The notes beneath the pieces were generated by a model. It saw only the letters and a list, made by a program, of their open reading frames with translations. It had not been told where the DNA came from and made no database searches. The position numbers were made by a program, and so were the translations under genes. A stretch of DNA of 32,850 nt from Actinomycetota bacterium (lineage in GTDB: Bacteria; Actinomycetota; Acidimicrobiia; Acidimicrobiales; AC-9), in assembly GCA_005888295.1 (NCBI GenBank), contig VAWP01000055.1, positions 1 through 32,850 of the forward strand, read 5' to 3'. Positions 4,937 to 16,127 of this stretch are shown here, piece by piece; position 1 is the first letter of the stretch, and the number at the start of each line of letters is the position of its first letter.

Positions 4937-5044
4937 TTAGTAGCAGGGAACGTCCAATTGACCAGGTTCGATCGTGAAGGGCCTCTGTCAACCGCCTAGC
5001 GACCTTTGGGAGTCACAGCCTTCTTTTGAGAAGCGAGGATGAGA

Positions 5045-5413
5045 ATGTCAACGGATGAGTCCGCCCATGGACAAGCCCAGGGTGGTGACGAAGGCCACCA
5101 GTCGCACGACGGCAGCGGTGAGGGCAGGAGCGGCGAGGGTGAGCCAACCCCCGTCAGCCGCCGCGAGGCGCTGCAGCGACTGGGCCAAGGTGTCGCTGGC
5201 GGAGCGATCGTCGGTGGCCTTGCGTGGGCTGCCCCAGAGATCCTCGTCGCCAAGCCGAATCACCCCGGACCGGGCTCTGCCCCCCCTGGAGGAGGAGGAG
5301 GGCAGGGTAACGGCGGAGGCAGCGGCGGAGGTCACGGCGGAGGTCACGGCGGAGGCCACCATGGAGGCGGGAACAGTGCATGGGCGGTCTCCCGTTGGAG
5401 CAGCAGCGCCTGA
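5045..5413 (+). CDS. Small exported protein with Tat-type signal and Gly/His-rich tail
   Basis: A 122-residue protein of unknown function. Residues 1-36 are hydrophilic and rich in Gly, Ser, Glu and His. SRREAL with the arginine pair at 39-40 is followed by a hydrophobic stretch (GVAGGAIVGGLAWAAP), a typical twin-arginine export signal. The mature part is mostly glycine with repeated HGGG units, possibly metal-binding or simply a flexible surface tail. ATG 5045 is chosen because GAGG (5035-5038) lies at good spacing; ATG 5039 in the same frame is the alternative. It is the first gene after the integrase remnant. Low-complexity composition makes homology hard to judge; the Tat signal argues that the frame is real. 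Confidence 0.55.
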   Translation: MSTDESAHGQAQGGDEGHQSHDGSGEGRSGEGEPTPVSRREALQRLGQGVAGGAIVGGLAWAAPEILVAKPNHPGPGSAPPGGGGGQGNGGGSGGGHGGGHGGGHHGGGNSAWAVSRWSSSA

Positions 5414-5727
5414 CGTCTGGGATCAGTTCCGCCGGCCACTAACCGTCTGCTCCCAGCGGTCCTCGACGTTGGGCATGGGGGCGTCCTCATGATTGGCCGC
5501 GGACCATGACTGGACCCTGACGGCCGCGTCAGTTCTTGGGCCACGAACGGGCCACATCCTGCGTTTACGACAGCTACCTCCCGTCAGCAAGCAGTCAGCA
5601 AACAGTCAGCCTCGCGTCAGAGTCGTCACTTATGGTGCTAACTGTCCGAAGTGACAGCAGCAGGAGAGTCGGCGGAAGCGTCGGTCGACAAGGCGACGCG
5701 ATCGCATCTGCAGGGAGGAAATGTTCG
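5414..5727 (+). other. Non-coding gap of 314 bases holding the promoter and leader of the next gene
   Basis: No convincing coding frame. The right part holds the 11-bp repeat array and -10 box described separately, followed by a leader of about 85 bases that ends in a GGGAGGAA ribosome site. The left part (5414-5582) shows no structure beyond one further GTCAG at 5528, placed 55 bases (five repeat lengths) before the first repeat. Confidence 0.6.
5583..5636 (+). promoter_or_regulatory. Four 11-bp-period direct repeats (GTCAG cores) upstream of a -10 box
   Basis: GTCAG occurs at 5583, 5594, 5605 and 5616, exactly 11 bases apart. The first two units are GTCAGCA with 4-base spacers AGCA and AACA, the third is GTCAGCC and the fourth GTCAGAG. 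Eight bases after the last heptamer comes TATGGT (5631-5636), a good -10 box. Heptamers with 4-base spacers ending 8 bases before the -10 are the known geometry of SARP activator sites, and 11-bp direct repeats are typical of PhoB/OmpR-type winged-helix regulators in general. No -35 box is needed or seen. The regulator is not identified. Confidence 0.7.
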
Positions 5728-6753
5728 ATGAACGAGAAGACCACGCGAGCGACGCCCAGGCGGTACACGAAGCTCATCGGAGCCGCATCCGCCGTGGCGG
5801 CGTTGGTGGCATTCGCCTCGCCGGCGACGGTGAACGCCGCGACCAAGGCCCGGACGGCCAGGACCATCACCACGACCAGCACGTCGACGTCACCTGAGCT
5901 GTTTCCGAACAGCTTCTTCGATCACTCGGTTCAAAACCAGCCGGTGGCGGCCAACAGTGGGACGCTCGTGTCGAACTTGGTCCAGCAGACCCAAGCTAAT
6001 AACGGGCACATCGGCGTGAACTACAGGCCGATCTTTACCGTGCCGGCGGACCAGCCGCTGGTACCGGTTACGGTGGCGAGCGGCTGCTACCCAGGCTTCC
6101 TCTCCACCCTTGGGAACGGCGTGCCGATCCCGGCCGCCGCCTACAACTCCAACAACAGCGACAACACCATCATCATCAGCCAGCCCTCGACGGGCCGGGA
6201 CTGGGAGCTGTGGCGGGCGACCCAGACCAACGGGCTGTGGTCGGCGTGCTGGGGCGGCGGATTGAACGCTCTTACATCGAGCGGAGTTTTCCCCTACCCG
6301 TTCGGCTCGTCTGCGTCGGGGATCTCCTATCTGGCGACGACGATCACCGAGGACGACGTCGCCTCGGGGCATATCAACCACGCCATCCCCCTGCAGATCA
6401 AGACGTGCAACGGGTTCACAGCGCCCGCTGACCGCACCGACTGCGGCTCGAACCCGGGCACCCCGCCAGAGGGCACCTGGTTCAGGATGCCGCAGAGCAC
6501 GCCGATGCCGGCCGGGCTCACCCCGTTCGGCCAAATGGTGTTCAGGTCGCTGCAGCAGTATGGCGCTGTCGTGACAGACAGGGCCGGAGCAGTGATGACC
6601 GAGGCCGAGAACACCAACGACTGGGCCCTCGCCGGCCACACCGGGACCGACCCCATCACTACGGCCTCCGCCGGCCAGCCGGAGTGGCTGGTGCTGAACG
6701 GGACGCCCTGGTCGCAGCTTCAGGTGATCCGCCCGCCCTCAGCCTTGGGCTAG
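5728..6753 (+). CDS. Secreted protein of unknown function (Sec signal peptide)
   Basis: A 341-residue protein I do not recognise. It begins with a clear Sec signal (charged MNEKTTRATPRRYTK, a hydrophobic core LIGAASAVAALVAFASPA, and cleavage probably after VNAA). A Thr/Ser-rich stretch follows. The mature part is Asn-, Ser- and Gly-rich with a few cysteines and aromatic patches such as DWELWRAT and WSACWGGGL, as in extracellular beta-rich proteins. The start ATG 5728 sits behind GGGAGGAA (5713-5720); longer in-frame extensions upstream would run through the promoter. It is controlled by the 11-bp repeat promoter and closed by a strong hairpin at 6798. It may act on, or bind, an extracellular polymer; that is only a guess from the composition. 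Confidence 0.8.
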   Translation: MNEKTTRATPRRYTKLIGAASAVAALVAFASPATVNAATKARTARTITTTSTSTSPELFPNSFFDHSVQNQPVAANSGTLVSNLVQQTQANNGHIGVNYRPIFTVPADQPLVPVTVASGCYPGFLSTLGNGVPIPAAAYNSNNSDNTIIISQPSTGRDWELWRATQTNGLWSACWGGGLNALTSSGVFPYPFGSSASGISYLATTITEDDVASGHINHAIPLQIKTCNGFTAPADRTDCGSNPGTPPEGTWFRMPQSTPMPAGLTPFGQMVFRSLQQYGAVVTDRAGAVMTEAENTNDWALAGHTGTDPITTASAGQPEWLVLNGTPWSQLQVIRPPSALG

Positions 6754-6901: not shown

Positions 6902-8082
6902 TCAGCAGGCCTGGTCCTGGTCGTACTGACCCGAGGTGGCCAGCTGCAACAGCCAGGGCTGGCCCCCGCCGAAGTCGTGGGAGCCGGAGCACCAGGACGA
7001 GGTGCGCGAGGGATCGGCGCCGGCGATCCAGTTCGGCACGCTGCCACCGCTCGGTACGTAACCGCCCGTGATCACGCCCCACTGGTAGCTGGTCGAGTAG
7101 TCCCCGGCCACCAGACCAAGGTGGCGAAGGGCATCGATCGCACCCTGGATCGTGTCTGCGTTCAGCGCGCGGTCGCAGGACCAGTAGCCGGTCCCGTTGG
7201 TGGGGAACGCATTGCTGCAGCCACCGGCGGTCTCGACGTCGAGCCACCACGTGGGCGCGCCGACACCCTCGTTCCCGGCGATCGCAACGCTGTTGGCCGC
7301 TGCGTTGTAGCCGTAGTTGTACGCCAGGCAGGCGTCGTTCCCCGGCGCGCAGCGTCCCGCCGGTCCTGACTGGTCGGTGCCGTCGATCGAGGTCGGCGAG
7401 TTGATGTTGATGTACAGGTTCAGACCCGAGCCCGCCCAGGACGCCTCACCGCTCAGGCAGGGGTTGGCGCTGAAGGCCTGGCCGTCGTTGACCCCGACGA
7501 TCGCCACGGTGTACGGCCTGGGTGGGTAGCTCTGCCCGCACTGCGGCCAGGAGATGTCGTAGCCCGTCGACCCAGACGGATAGCGCGCCGTTCCCGACGA
7601 CGGCGGGGGGCGCCTGGGGTGACCACGCCCCGGCGGGGCCAGCAGGGGGGGCAGACCAGGTAGCAGACGGGGGCCCAGCCCCGGCGGCGCGGGGGGCCTG
7701 GCCGGCGCAGGCTGGGCTGGCGGCGGGGCCGGGGGCGTCGGGCTCGGACGTGGGGACCGCCCGGCGGCGGGGCGTCGGGGGGCGACCCGACCTGGACAGT
7801 TCCGATGGCGGCACCCGCCGCCACGGCCGTCCCGTTCGGAGCCACCTGGCTCTGGCCGGAGGCGGGCGCCGAAGGCGGGACCGACGCAGCCCGGTCGACG
7901 GACCCCGGTGGTGCCGGCGGTGTCGGGCCGCCGACAGAGAGCGCAACCGGCCGCGAGTGGCCGCTCCAGGTGATGCCACCAGCCACCGCCGCCACCAGCA
8001 GGCTGGCGATCAGCACGGCGGCGCCAGGACGCGAGAGACCCCGGAGCCTCGCTACCCGGTCCCCAGCTGCCCCAGTCATCAC
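6902..8082 (-). pseudogene. Membrane-anchored or secreted GH25-like (glycosidase-fold) protein, frameshifted
   Basis: Two frames make one protein. The first (from 8082) encodes a basic start, a membrane or signal helix (AAVLIASLLVAAVAGG) and a Pro/Ala/Ser linker. The second, open from about 7760 to 6902, encodes a Pro-rich linker and a C-terminal domain of about 210 residues starting TGYDISWPQCG. That domain has AIVGVNDG, NYGYNAAANS, WWLDVET and YSTSYQWG, the strand ends of a TIM-barrel lysozyme-like (GH25-like) fold; WWLDVET would hold the acidic pair. A single-base loss in the C-rich linker near 7735-7770 would join the frames. Six cysteines in the domain support an exported location. Function as a wall hydrolase is inferred. 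The gene would be functional if the shift is a sequencing error. Confidence 0.65.
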
Positions 8083-13010: not shown

Positions 13011-15665
13011 TCACACCCGAGCCATGTTGGCGAAGCGGGTGTAGTGCTCGAGGAACGCCAGCTGGGTCAGCCCGGTCGGCCCGTTGCGGTGCTTCGACAG
13101 GATGACCTCCGCCGTTCCTCGGTCCGGCGAGTCGGGGTGGTACACCTCGTCCCGGTAGATGAAGAGGACCACATCGGCGTCCTGCTCCAGCGAGTTGTGG
13201 GCGATCACCCCGTTCGCCACGAAGTTGTGGGTGCCTTCCACAGTGGCGTCGAAGGTGGGCACGGGTCCGAGCGGGACGATCTCCACCACCTCGTCCCACA
13301 TCACCTCTGACGAGGCGAGAGCAGCAAGCTCCCGATCACCGAGCGTCGCGGCCATCTGGCCGAGCCGGGTCCTGGAGAACCGGCGTGGACGTCGGGCGTC
13401 ACCGAGAAGATACGAGCCGCAATACCCCTCGTTCAGAGCGGTTGCCAGGGCGCGATGCGTGACTCCCGTACGTCGCAGGGAGTCCCGAACCTGCTCCGCC
13501 ACCGCCCACGGCACCAGGTCGACGTTGGGATTCGGCTTGATGGCCCGCAGGATGTCGTGGCATTCAGGGATCCGGGCTCCTCGCTCCCCATGACATCCAA
13601 CGACCACGAGGAACTTCGAGATCTCTCTCGCTCCATCGATGCGGACATGCCAGTTGTCCCGGGCACCTGCCTTGCGGGCCTTCGACAGCCGCGTGCGGAT
13701 GTCGAGGCGCAGGAGAGCCCGACGTACGCCGTCGGCCAGGCGCCGGCTGGCTGACGCGTAGTAGGCCCGCACCACCTGACCCCGAGCATTTCGAGTGATC
13801 GTTATCGACCCGTCGGTCGCCCACAGGTGACGGAGGAACAGGGCGATCTTGTGATCGGGAAGAGCAAAGATCTCTTCCGGAATGAACTTGTCCGGCGCCC
13901 GAGATCCCCACAACCCCATCGGCTCGAGCCAATTGCGGAGCGGATGACGTCTCCCGTGTGTAAGCCGGTACGGCGCCGGCAGCCACAGCAACCAGGTCCT
14001 GCCCTGTTGCTTGCCCTGGACCCTGATCCCGAACGAGCGGAGGGCCGCTTGCTCGACGGCCAGCTTGTTTGCCTGGTCCGCCGTGGCGTACTTCACGCCA
14101 TTTGGTCCCATCGAGCCGTCGCCCAGAAGGTGAGCCAGGAGGACCAGCTCGTCGTCGCACCAGGCGCTCGGCTGCTGCGGCCGGCCAATCCGGCGCGGGA
14201 CGGCGAGGTGGTCACCGGGAGCGAGCTGGTCGAGGCGGGTCCAACCCGTCACGGTACGGAATTGATGGTTGGCGGTGGCCTCGACCTCGTACCCGGACGC
14301 CAGCCGAAGGCGGTAGACCGGCTTCACCCCTGAAGGAAATGCGTTCACCAGGCGGCGAGGTTCCATCTCCCAGTCCTCGTTCAACGACCACACGAGTGGC
14401 TGCTCCTGACTCAGCACCAGCTCGCCCAGTGTCACCTCCTGGCCGTTGTCGGCACGCAGCAGCCGGGTGGATGCCGGCATGCAGCCCGACTCCCTCAGGT
14501 CCGCGAGCACGGGGCGCTTGTCGGCCCGCATCTCGAGGTTGCGCGACAGCTGGGACAGGGCAACGACCGGTACGTCGAGCTCGCGGGCCAGGATCTTGAG
14601 CCCCCGGCTGATCTCCGAGACCTCCACCTGGCGGTTCTCCGCGGTGGTGCGACCGGACATCAGCTGGAGGTAGTCCACGACCACCAGCCCCAGACCCTCC
14701 CTGCTCTTCAGCCGGCGTGCCTTGGCCCGGATGTCCATGACCGTGACGTTGGGGTTGTCGTCGATGAAGATCGGCGCCTCACCGAGGTGGCCGATGGCCG
14801 TGCTGATCTTCGGCCAGTCGGACTCGAGCAGCCGGCCGTTCCGCATCCGGGTGGCGTCGACCCGGGCCTCGGCGCACAGCAGGCGCTGGGTGAGCTCGAG
14901 GTGGCTCATCTCGAGAGAGAAGAGCAGCACGGGGAGGCGACTCTCCATGGCCGCGTGGGCCACGAGACCGAGGGCGAAGGCCGTCTTTCCCATGCTGGGC
15001 CGGCCGCCGACGATGACGAGGTTGGAGGGCTGCAGGCCGGAGAGCCGCTCGTCGAGATCGTTGTACCCGGTGGGGATACCGGTGATCGCGTCCCCCCGGT
15101 CGTACAACGACTCCAGGTTGTCCAGCGTGCGGGCCAGAAGGTCCCGTACCGTGGCGACCGTGTCGACGCCCCGGCGCTGGGCCACCTCGAACACCATCGT
15201 CTCGGCCCGGTCCACCGCCGCGGTCACGTCGTCCGGCACCTGGTAGCCCAGCTCGGCGATCTCGGCGGCGACGCCGATCATCCTGCGCAGGAGCGCATGC
15301 TCCTCGACGATCCGCGCGTAGCGGCCGGCGTTGGAGATGGCCGGGGTGTTCGCCTGCAGCGAGATCAGCGTCGCCGGGCCCCCGATGGCGTCCAGCAATC
15401 CTGCCCGGCGGAGCTCGTCGGCGATGGTCACCGGGTCGGCCGGCTCGCCCTGGGCGTACAAGGTGGTTACGGCGTCGAAGATGTGGCCGTGAGCAGGCTT
15501 GTAGAAATCGTCCGCCCCGCACTGCTCGACGGCGGTCGCGATGGCGTCCCGCGACAGGATCATCGCTCCGAGAAGCGACTCCTCGGCCTCGAGGTTGTGC
15601 GGCGGGACCCGCCCAGCGGCGCCACTACGCCCCCTGCGGCGGGCGTCGTCGAGCGATTGCACCAT
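13011..15665 (-). CDS. dnaB: Replicative DNA helicase DnaB with an in-frame intein
   Basis: The hexameric helicase that opens the replication fork. The 884-residue precursor has an N-terminal primase-interaction domain (VPPHNLEAEESLLGAM, about residues 20-120), then the RecA-like ATPase domain with Walker A GGRPSMGKTAF, Walker B VVVDYLQLM and SQLSRNLEMR. The ATPase domain is interrupted after DLRESG at residue 394 by a 430-residue intein and resumes at SLEQDADVVLFIYRDEVY. The spliced helicase would have 454 residues, the normal size. ATG 15665 has GAGGG about 9 bases upstream. It lies downstream of rpsF-ssb-rpsR-rplI in the classical order but after a 460-base gap, so it probably has its own promoter. 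No frame damage is seen. Confidence 0.96.
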   Translation of the reverse strand: MVQSLDDARRRGRSGAAGRVPPHNLEAEESLLGAMILSRDAIATAVEQCGADDFYKPAHGHIFDAVTTLYAQGEPADPVTIADELRRAGLLDAIGGPATLISLQANTPAISNAGRYARIVEEHALLRRMIGVAAEIAELGYQVPDDVTAAVDRAETMVFEVAQRRGVDTVATVRDLLARTLDNLESLYDRGDAITGIPTGYNDLDERLSGLQPSNLVIVGGRPSMGKTAFALGLVAHAAMESRLPVLLFSLEMSHLELTQRLLCAEARVDATRMRNGRLLESDWPKISTAIGHLGEAPIFIDDNPNVTVMDIRAKARRLKSREGLGLVVVDYLQLMSGRTTAENRQVEVSEISRGLKILARELDVPVVALSQLSRNLEMRADKRPVLADLRESGCMPASTRLLRADNGQEVTLGELVLSQEQPLVWSLNEDWEMEPRRLVNAFPSGVKPVYRLRLASGYEVEATANHQFRTVTGWTRLDQLAPGDHLAVPRRIGRPQQPSAWCDDELVLLAHLLGDGSMGPNGVKYATADQANKLAVEQAALRSFGIRVQGKQQGRTWLLWLPAPYRLTHGRRHPLRNWLEPMGLWGSRAPDKFIPEEIFALPDHKIALFLRHLWATDGSITITRNARGQVVRAYYASASRRLADGVRRALLRLDIRTRLSKARKAGARDNWHVRIDGAREISKFLVVVGCHGERGARIPECHDILRAIKPNPNVDLVPWAVAEQVRDSLRRTGVTHRALATALNEGYCGSYLLGDARRPRRFSRTRLGQMAATLGDRELAALASSEVMWDEVVEIVPLGPVPTFDATVEGTHNFVANGVIAHNSLEQDADVVLFIYRDEVYHPDSPDRGTAEVILSKHRNGPTGLTQLAFLEHYTRFANMARV
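13194..14483 (-). other. DnaB intein with LAGLIDADG homing endonuclease (430 residues)
   Basis: A protein-splicing element inside dnaB. It begins with Cys (CMPASTRLL), has the block B motif TANH in YEVEATANHQF, and ends VIAHN with Ser as the first residue of the following extein. All residues for standard class 1 splicing are present. The central part shows two LAGLIDADG-type helices, LLAHLLGDGSM and LFLRHLWATDGSI, each with its catalytic Asp, so the homing nuclease may be active. The insertion site, DLRESG / S-LEQDAD, is the site used by the Synechocystis and Rhodothermus DnaB inteins. It spans precursor residues 395-824. Confidence 0.93.
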
Positions 15666-16127
15666 GGCGCCCTACCCTCGCCGCGATGCCTGTGAGGTTG
15701 CCAGGGGACGACTTGTTGATTTGGCTGGGGATTGGCAGTGGATTACGCGCGCACGACCGCCAGGCATACGTCGACCGTACCGACCGGGTGTATCGGTGAC
15801 GCGGATCGCCCCGCGCGTCGGGCGCGTCGCACCTCAGCTCTCGAACCTGTGCGGGCGATCCGGCCGAGCGCCTCGTCCCGGTTCTTCGAAATCCGGGCCG
15901 ATGCGCTCGTCCGGCTCCCCCTGTGCCGTCGGCCGTGTCTCAGCACCCCAGCGTCGGCACGCTGCTCTGAAAGAGAGAGGAGCAGCCGCCCGCCTCTGTC
16001 AGAGAACCGCCATCGCTCGTCGGGCCAGAGGGGCCGGTGCCTCGGGTGGCTGCCATTTCGTAAGAACTGGCAGCCAGCCGAGGTACCGGTTCCTCACCGC
16101 CCGATGGCGCGCCAGCGAACCGGCACG
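15666..16127. other. Gap of 462 bases between rplI and dnaB without a supported gene
   Basis: Long open frames cross it on the plus strand but show no recognisable protein and overlap rplI and rpsR antisense. It should hold the end of the rplI transcript (hairpin at 16047-16076) and the dnaB promoter, which I cannot place with confidence. Base composition is slightly less GC-rich than in the genes. Nothing else was seen. Confidence 0.5.
16047..16076 (-). terminator. Hairpin, probable end of the rpsF-ssb-rpsR-rplI transcript
   Basis: A perfect 9-bp inverted repeat, TGGCTGCCA (16047-16055) and TGGCAGCCA (16068-16076), with a 12-base loop, 51 bases after the rplI stop. There is no T-run after it on the minus strand, so it may be an inefficient or factor-assisted terminator or an RNA 3' stabiliser. 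Confidence 0.5.

Follow-up and report, generated by a model that had tools for sequence, protein, structure and literature searches.

Several described systems read direct repeats upstream of genes. The core of the E. coli PHO box contains GTCA. In the enterobacterial CpxR/CpxP pair, the gene of an OmpR-type regulator stands back to back with that of a small exported protein, and the two share a direct-repeat operator. In M. tuberculosis, PhoP recognizes 7-bp motifs separated by a 4-bp spacer (an 11-bp period), binds them as a tandem dimer and does so with tighter affinity when three or four motifs are present (PMC4832192). PhoP contacts the CAGC half of its motif TCACAGC through residues N212 and E215, and the TCA half through V213, Y217 and Y220. 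Finally, the promoters of SARP activators follow a rule of 11- or 22-bp direct repeats, the last of which lies 8 bp from a poor -10 (PMC10936776).

Here we describe an array of this general kind in the window, that is, the whole stretch of 32,850 nucleotides that was analysed, from an actinobacterial genome (G000). This array belongs to a genus-specific regulon with about 6-9 promoters in each genome. We propose that positions 5583-5636 are an operator together with a core promoter and that they are read by a tetramer of an OmpR/PhoB-type activator, the likeliest candidates being two regulators encoded on contigs C169 and C153; we put the probability of this reading at about 0.58. What began as one odd repeat has thus become a defined regulon with a candidate regulator in an uncharacterised genus.

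Four GTCAG repeats precede the gene of a secreted protein

All elements of the promoter lie on the + strand. Within 5580-5640, ccc is followed by GTCAGCAAGCA, GTCAGCAAACA, GTCAGCCTCGC and GTCAGAG, then by a gap of 8 nt, TCGTCACT (5623-5630), and by the -10-like hexamer TATGGT (5631-5636). The GTCAG cores begin at 5583, 5594, 5605 and 5616, a period of exactly 11 bp, and each opens a heptamer: GTCAGCA (5583-5589), GTCAGCA (5594-5600), GTCAGCC (5605-5611) and the promoter-proximal GTCAGAG (5616-5622). The first is read from the sequence and from a profile match (C143:5580-5637, E 5.9e-10), the other three from the sequence and from both pattern and profile matches. The first-pass annotation had called these four exact 11-bp repeats; four cores do recur every 11 bp, but the full 11-mers (GTCAGCAAGCA, GTCAGCAAACA, GTCAGCCTCGC and GTCAGAGTCGT) differ, and identity is limited to the 5-bp cores. 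Its statement that the last heptamer ends 8 bases before TATGGT is borne out by the sequence.

A further GTCAG at 5528-5532 (+), 55 bases upstream of the first core, had been put forward as a fifth repeat. It is real and in register, but a core at -55 is present in 0 of the 18 other arrays, and we reject it as an operator repeat. Since, in addition, the four intervening positions do not carry GTCAG, it is probably a chance occurrence outside the operator.

The gene downstream (5728-6753, +) encodes a 341-aa protein whose hydrophobic N-terminal stretch has the character of a Sec-type signal peptide, so the claim that the array precedes the gene of a secreted protein stands. This protein has no Pfam or NCBIfam family, no match in the sister species G001 and G002 and no relative in the genome_contigs search, and a structure predicted from its single sequence was uninformative (mean pLDDT 33). 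Its two paralogues in G000 (64% and 70% identical) both lie on the small contig C9 (L094), about 9 kb apart (5418-6284, +, and 14817-15827, -), and no array was found in their promoters. Because these homologues lack it, the array belongs to the regulon and not to the protein family, and the window gene was probably recruited into a regulon that already existed.

Other reading frames of the neighbourhood were also inspected. Upstream, a 124-aa ORF (5039-5413, +) has a Tat-like N-terminal SRREALQRLG and a Gly/His-rich tail that is encoded by 12-bp DNA repeats; it has no Pfam family. Downstream, two ORFs on the - strand (6902-7507 and 7453-8082) overlap in different frames, neither with a Pfam family, and look like a single gene for a secreted protein that a frameshift, or else an error of assembly, has broken in two.

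The array recurs as a genus-specific regulon

How often would such an array arise by chance? From the frequency of GTCAG in the window, about 3e-7 four-in-register arrays are expected. With up to two mismatches, the three-repeat pattern matches the window twice, in overlapping positions that both fall within the array, where dinucleotide shuffles predict 0.19. Over the whole of G000 there are 14 three-repeat matches with at most one mismatch and 1 for the reversed control; across all searches, reversed patterns gave 0-1 matches. In a survey of the order (59 genomes), the three members of the genus had 9, 10 and 6 exact matches to the three-repeat pattern, and the other 56 genomes 0-2 apiece. 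GTCAG-N6-GTCAG pairs number 25 genome-wide, and the other 18 spacings yield a mean of 9 each (total 187), so that pairs alone are not diagnostic. The array is a real regulon signal.

To collect the regulon we used a sequence-only profile, R1, built from 18 promoters. At E <= 3e-5 it finds 9, 6 and 6 promoters in G000, G001 and G002, and in nine genomes of other families it has no match below E 0.01. As 18 of these 21 promoters were also in the training set (the exceptions being C193, C168 and C47 of G002), profile scores are high by construction, and it is the raw pattern counts, read against their controls, that provide independent evidence. The first-pass annotation had suspected a new regulon behind the repeats, and they do recur as one, at nine promoters in G000: on contigs C31, C121, C52, C38, C169, C143 (the window), C59, C193 and C168. 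The signal itself is of a known kind; a search of the literature for response regulators together with GTCAG repeats returned nothing relevant, and we found no description of this regulon there.

Throughout the regulon the architecture hardly changes. Most arrays have four repeats with the consensus CGTCAG(C/G), and the period is 11 bp everywhere except in C193 and C168, whose first spacing is 10 nt; the second repeat is degenerate in C38 and in its orthologue C47. The gap between the last heptamer and the -10 has the same length in 18 of the 19 aligned promoters. All but one of these promoters were collected by the GTCAG pattern alone, and still the sequence downstream of the arrays aligned: the -10 follows [CT]A-n-n-GT and then G, with A and T each in 18/19 and the next G in 15/19. 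In this DNA the frequencies of A and T are about 0.15 each, and this agreement is far from chance. Together, the 11-bp direct repeats, the constant 8-nt gap and the weak -10 uphold the earlier assignment to the class of activator operators of the SARP/PhoB kind.

At five loci the array has been kept in two species or in all three. These are a regulator/lipoprotein locus (C169 of G000, C34 of G001, C155 of G002); a membrane protein followed by a Tim44-like protein (C193, C178, C132); a protein with an LPG-synthase domain (C31 of G000, C34 of G002); a small zinc-ribbon protein (C38, C47); and a small membrane protein with one helix (C121 of G000, C26 of G001). The expectation that the repeats would be conserved upstream of homologues is thus borne out at these five loci but not at the window protein's homologues on C9. 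At the regulator/lipoprotein locus, the three species are identical at 20 of 20 core bases, at 15 of the 28 remaining bases of array plus gap, and at 2 of 40 bases upstream; cores are kept between species while spacers diverge.

These data bear on the idea that the arrays are repressor operators, or else tandem repeats with no regulatory function. A repressor would find some comfort at the regulator locus, where the array lies 4-26 nt from the regulator gene and binding could block that gene's promoter. Yet the constant distance to the -10 across unrelated genes is the geometry of an activator, the number of such arrays expected by chance is vanishingly small, and conserved cores amid varying spacers do not fit neutral repeats. 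We regard both versions as very improbable.

The products encoded downstream of the arrays are mainly lipoproteins, secreted proteins or membrane proteins. They also include a protease of the trypsin-like (HtrA-like) type that carries a zinc ribbon as well as a transmembrane helix (C206 of G001) and a protein with a phosphatidylglycerol lysyltransferase-type domain. On C168, and on C24 and C152 of G002, the array has no clear downstream gene. This list of targets suggests that the regulon serves the cell envelope, which would probably give its unannotated protein families a shared context.

Which protein reads the array?

The geometry of the window array (11-bp repeats, 8 bp to the -10) is exactly that of the SARP promoter rule (PMC10936776). 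It is therefore natural to ask whether a SARP, a BTAD-type activator, reads it through AfsR-like sigma adaptation, as a SARP would in the antibiotic clusters of Streptomyces. GTCAG arrays with this geometry do occur in Streptomyces biosynthetic clusters and in other actinobacteria, several of these loci have a SARP gene, and in L181 and L182 that gene is divergent from the array. Moreover, BTAD matches are present in both sister genomes (two in G001, one in G002), and one orthologous SARP-type protein, 64% identical, is common to them. But G000, the genome richest in arrays, has 0 BTAD matches, an absence that is not certain, the assembly being 91.6% complete. Both neighbours of the G001 SARP gene are found on C195 of G000, where the SARP is missing between them, and none of the arrays of the genus adjoins a SARP gene, the nearest lying about 10 kb away (C24 of G002). 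The earlier label "SARP/PhoB-like" is thus right in that the geometry fits both families equally, but its SARP half is the weaker one, because G000 has no detectable BTAD protein and the place of the G001 SARP is empty there. SARP-box geometry by itself does not identify a SARP, and we consider this reader improbable; an orphan response regulator of the OmpR/PhoP type is the likelier one.

G000 encodes 11 OmpR-type (Trans_reg_C) proteins. One of them, on C169, has intact receiver and DNA-binding domains, and in each of G000, G001 and G002 an array lies about 4-26 nt from the start of its gene. On C169 the array sits between the regulator gene and a divergent gene for a 156-aa lipoprotein with no Pfam or NCBIfam family. 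No histidine kinase gene was recognized next to the regulator, which is thus an orphan. In the 59 genomes, its clade (E <= 1e-60) comprises the genus plus one relative at 51% identity, and its phyletic range equals that of the arrays. Each genome of the genus also has one paralogue, 73% identical (C153 in G000), with the same recognition helix; in the neighbourhood of this paralogue no array was found in the three species. The paralogue gene lies beside an arylsulfatase-like gene in 3 of 3 cases (L264, G000 C153; L265, G001 C238; L266, G002 C78). By our own estimate, a single conserved regulator neighbour among some 8 loci could come about by chance in roughly 5% of cases, and the linkage of the C169 regulator to the arrays is circumstantial.

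The recognition helix offers a second line of evidence. The nearest solved homologue of the C169 regulator is M. tuberculosis PhoP, and relative to it the helices of the C169 and C153 proteins keep N212, V213 and E215 and change S216R, Y217H and Y220A. Relative to the PhoP site, the array keeps the CAGC half and has CGT in place of TCA. Changes in helix and in site thus appear to agree, although V213 is retained where the base it contacts differs, which counts against a reading by C169/C153. A testable prediction follows: the three substitutions would rewrite half of the operator, from TCA to CGT.

Could another OmpR-type regulator of G000 read the arrays instead, with the C169 regulator merely one of its targets? 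There are, after all, 11 to choose from, and since its gene abuts an array, the C169 regulator could simply be regulated. Two others, on C147 and C149, are present in all three genomes and carry PhoP-like helices. Those helices ([NS]V[VL]ETY[VI]SYLRKK) nevertheless keep the residues with which PhoP reads TCA, whereas the site has CGT, and we think such a reader unlikely.

The preferred reading, in which the C169 or C153 regulator acts on the array, would then work as follows. The active regulator would form a tandem head-to-tail tetramer over the four subsites, its winged-helix protomers side by side on the four GTCAG cores, one per helical turn. At this promoter, whose -10 is weak and which lacks a useful -35, the promoter-proximal protomers, placed at the -35 position, would recruit RNA polymerase. 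Activation would switch on the secreted-protein gene at 5728; transcription is expected to begin near 5643, which would leave a leader of about 85 nt ahead of the ATG at 5728. On C169 the array would activate the lipoprotein gene, and it overlaps the region before the regulator gene; because the two genes share this array, autoregulation of the C169 regulator is expected.

GTCAG arrays in other bacteria

GTCAG arrays also occur far from the genus. In Streptomyces, five loci (L108, L141, L150, L154 and L162) have divergent pairs of four-repeat arrays with a CAGACT-like -10 after 8 nt, and in L108, L141 and L154 these lie between the ketosynthase and acyl-carrier-protein genes of a biosynthetic cluster; they are likely SARP-type sites. 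Among 80 public loci with such arrays, the array precedes an OmpR-type gene in two, both from Brevundimonas (L116, 2969-3022; L174, 1101-1154). There, four repeats lie upstream of the OmpR-type gene, from which a LuxR-type regulator gene diverges; in L116 a sensor kinase gene follows. L110 and L142 also have an OmpR-type gene, in a different arrangement. In L106 and L128 (Comamonadaceae, Azohydromonas), four-repeat arrays stand before a conserved transporter gene of the major facilitator type; L137, L159 and L167 have similar arrays, and spacer sequence is related in several genera.

Comparison with known systems

The array has the 10-11 bp direct repeats upstream of a -10 that mark an OmpR/PhoB operator. 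Its core had been described as neither the usual SARP sequence nor the PHO box. It is not, however, unrelated to the motifs of OmpR-type regulators, because it has GTCA in common with the PHO box of E. coli, and CAGC with the motif of M. tuberculosis PhoP (PMC4832192).

Like the PHO box of PhoB and of Streptomyces PhoP, the array consists of 11-bp direct repeats, and the PHO box is read by an OmpR/PhoB protein. A Pho regulon, defined by phosphate-acquisition targets and a PhoB equivalog, is a different thing: no phosphate gene was recognized among the targets, and the candidate regulator scores 155 bits against the PhoB equivalog, far below the cut-off of 296. With the promoters of AfsR-type SARPs, the array has in common the 11-bp direct repeats, the 8 bp to a suboptimal -10 and the poor -35 (PMC10936776); it differs from them in its GTCAG core, in targets that are envelope proteins and not an antibiotic cluster, and in a genome, G000, that has no detectable BTAD protein.

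Tentatively, and with the odds against so specific a scenario, we envision that a genus-specific pair of orphan regulators may have evolved a near-fixed operator of four subsites with SARP geometry, bound by a full-length tandem tetramer that would adapt sigma in SARP-like fashion and control an envelope regulon.

In arrangement, and as a resemblance only, the C169 locus recalls CpxR/CpxP, with its pair of regulator and exported protein and with envelope targets that include an HtrA-like protease in G001; unlike that system, it has no adjacent histidine kinase, its motif is different and its lipoprotein belongs to no Pfam or NCBIfam family. M. tuberculosis PhoP differs from the system described here in that its sites (TCACAGC-N4-TCACAGC, with a strict 4-bp spacer) begin with TCA where ours have CGT, in the three helix residues that are substituted in the candidate, in the number of repeats, which is nearly constant at four here, and in that our candidate has no adjacent kinase. 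What the consensus shares with the PhoP site is only the period and CAGC. The two systems are nonetheless alike in the tandem arrangement of up to four repeats every 11 bp, in the CAGC half-motif and in an OmpR-type reader, PhoP being the closest solved homologue of our candidate.
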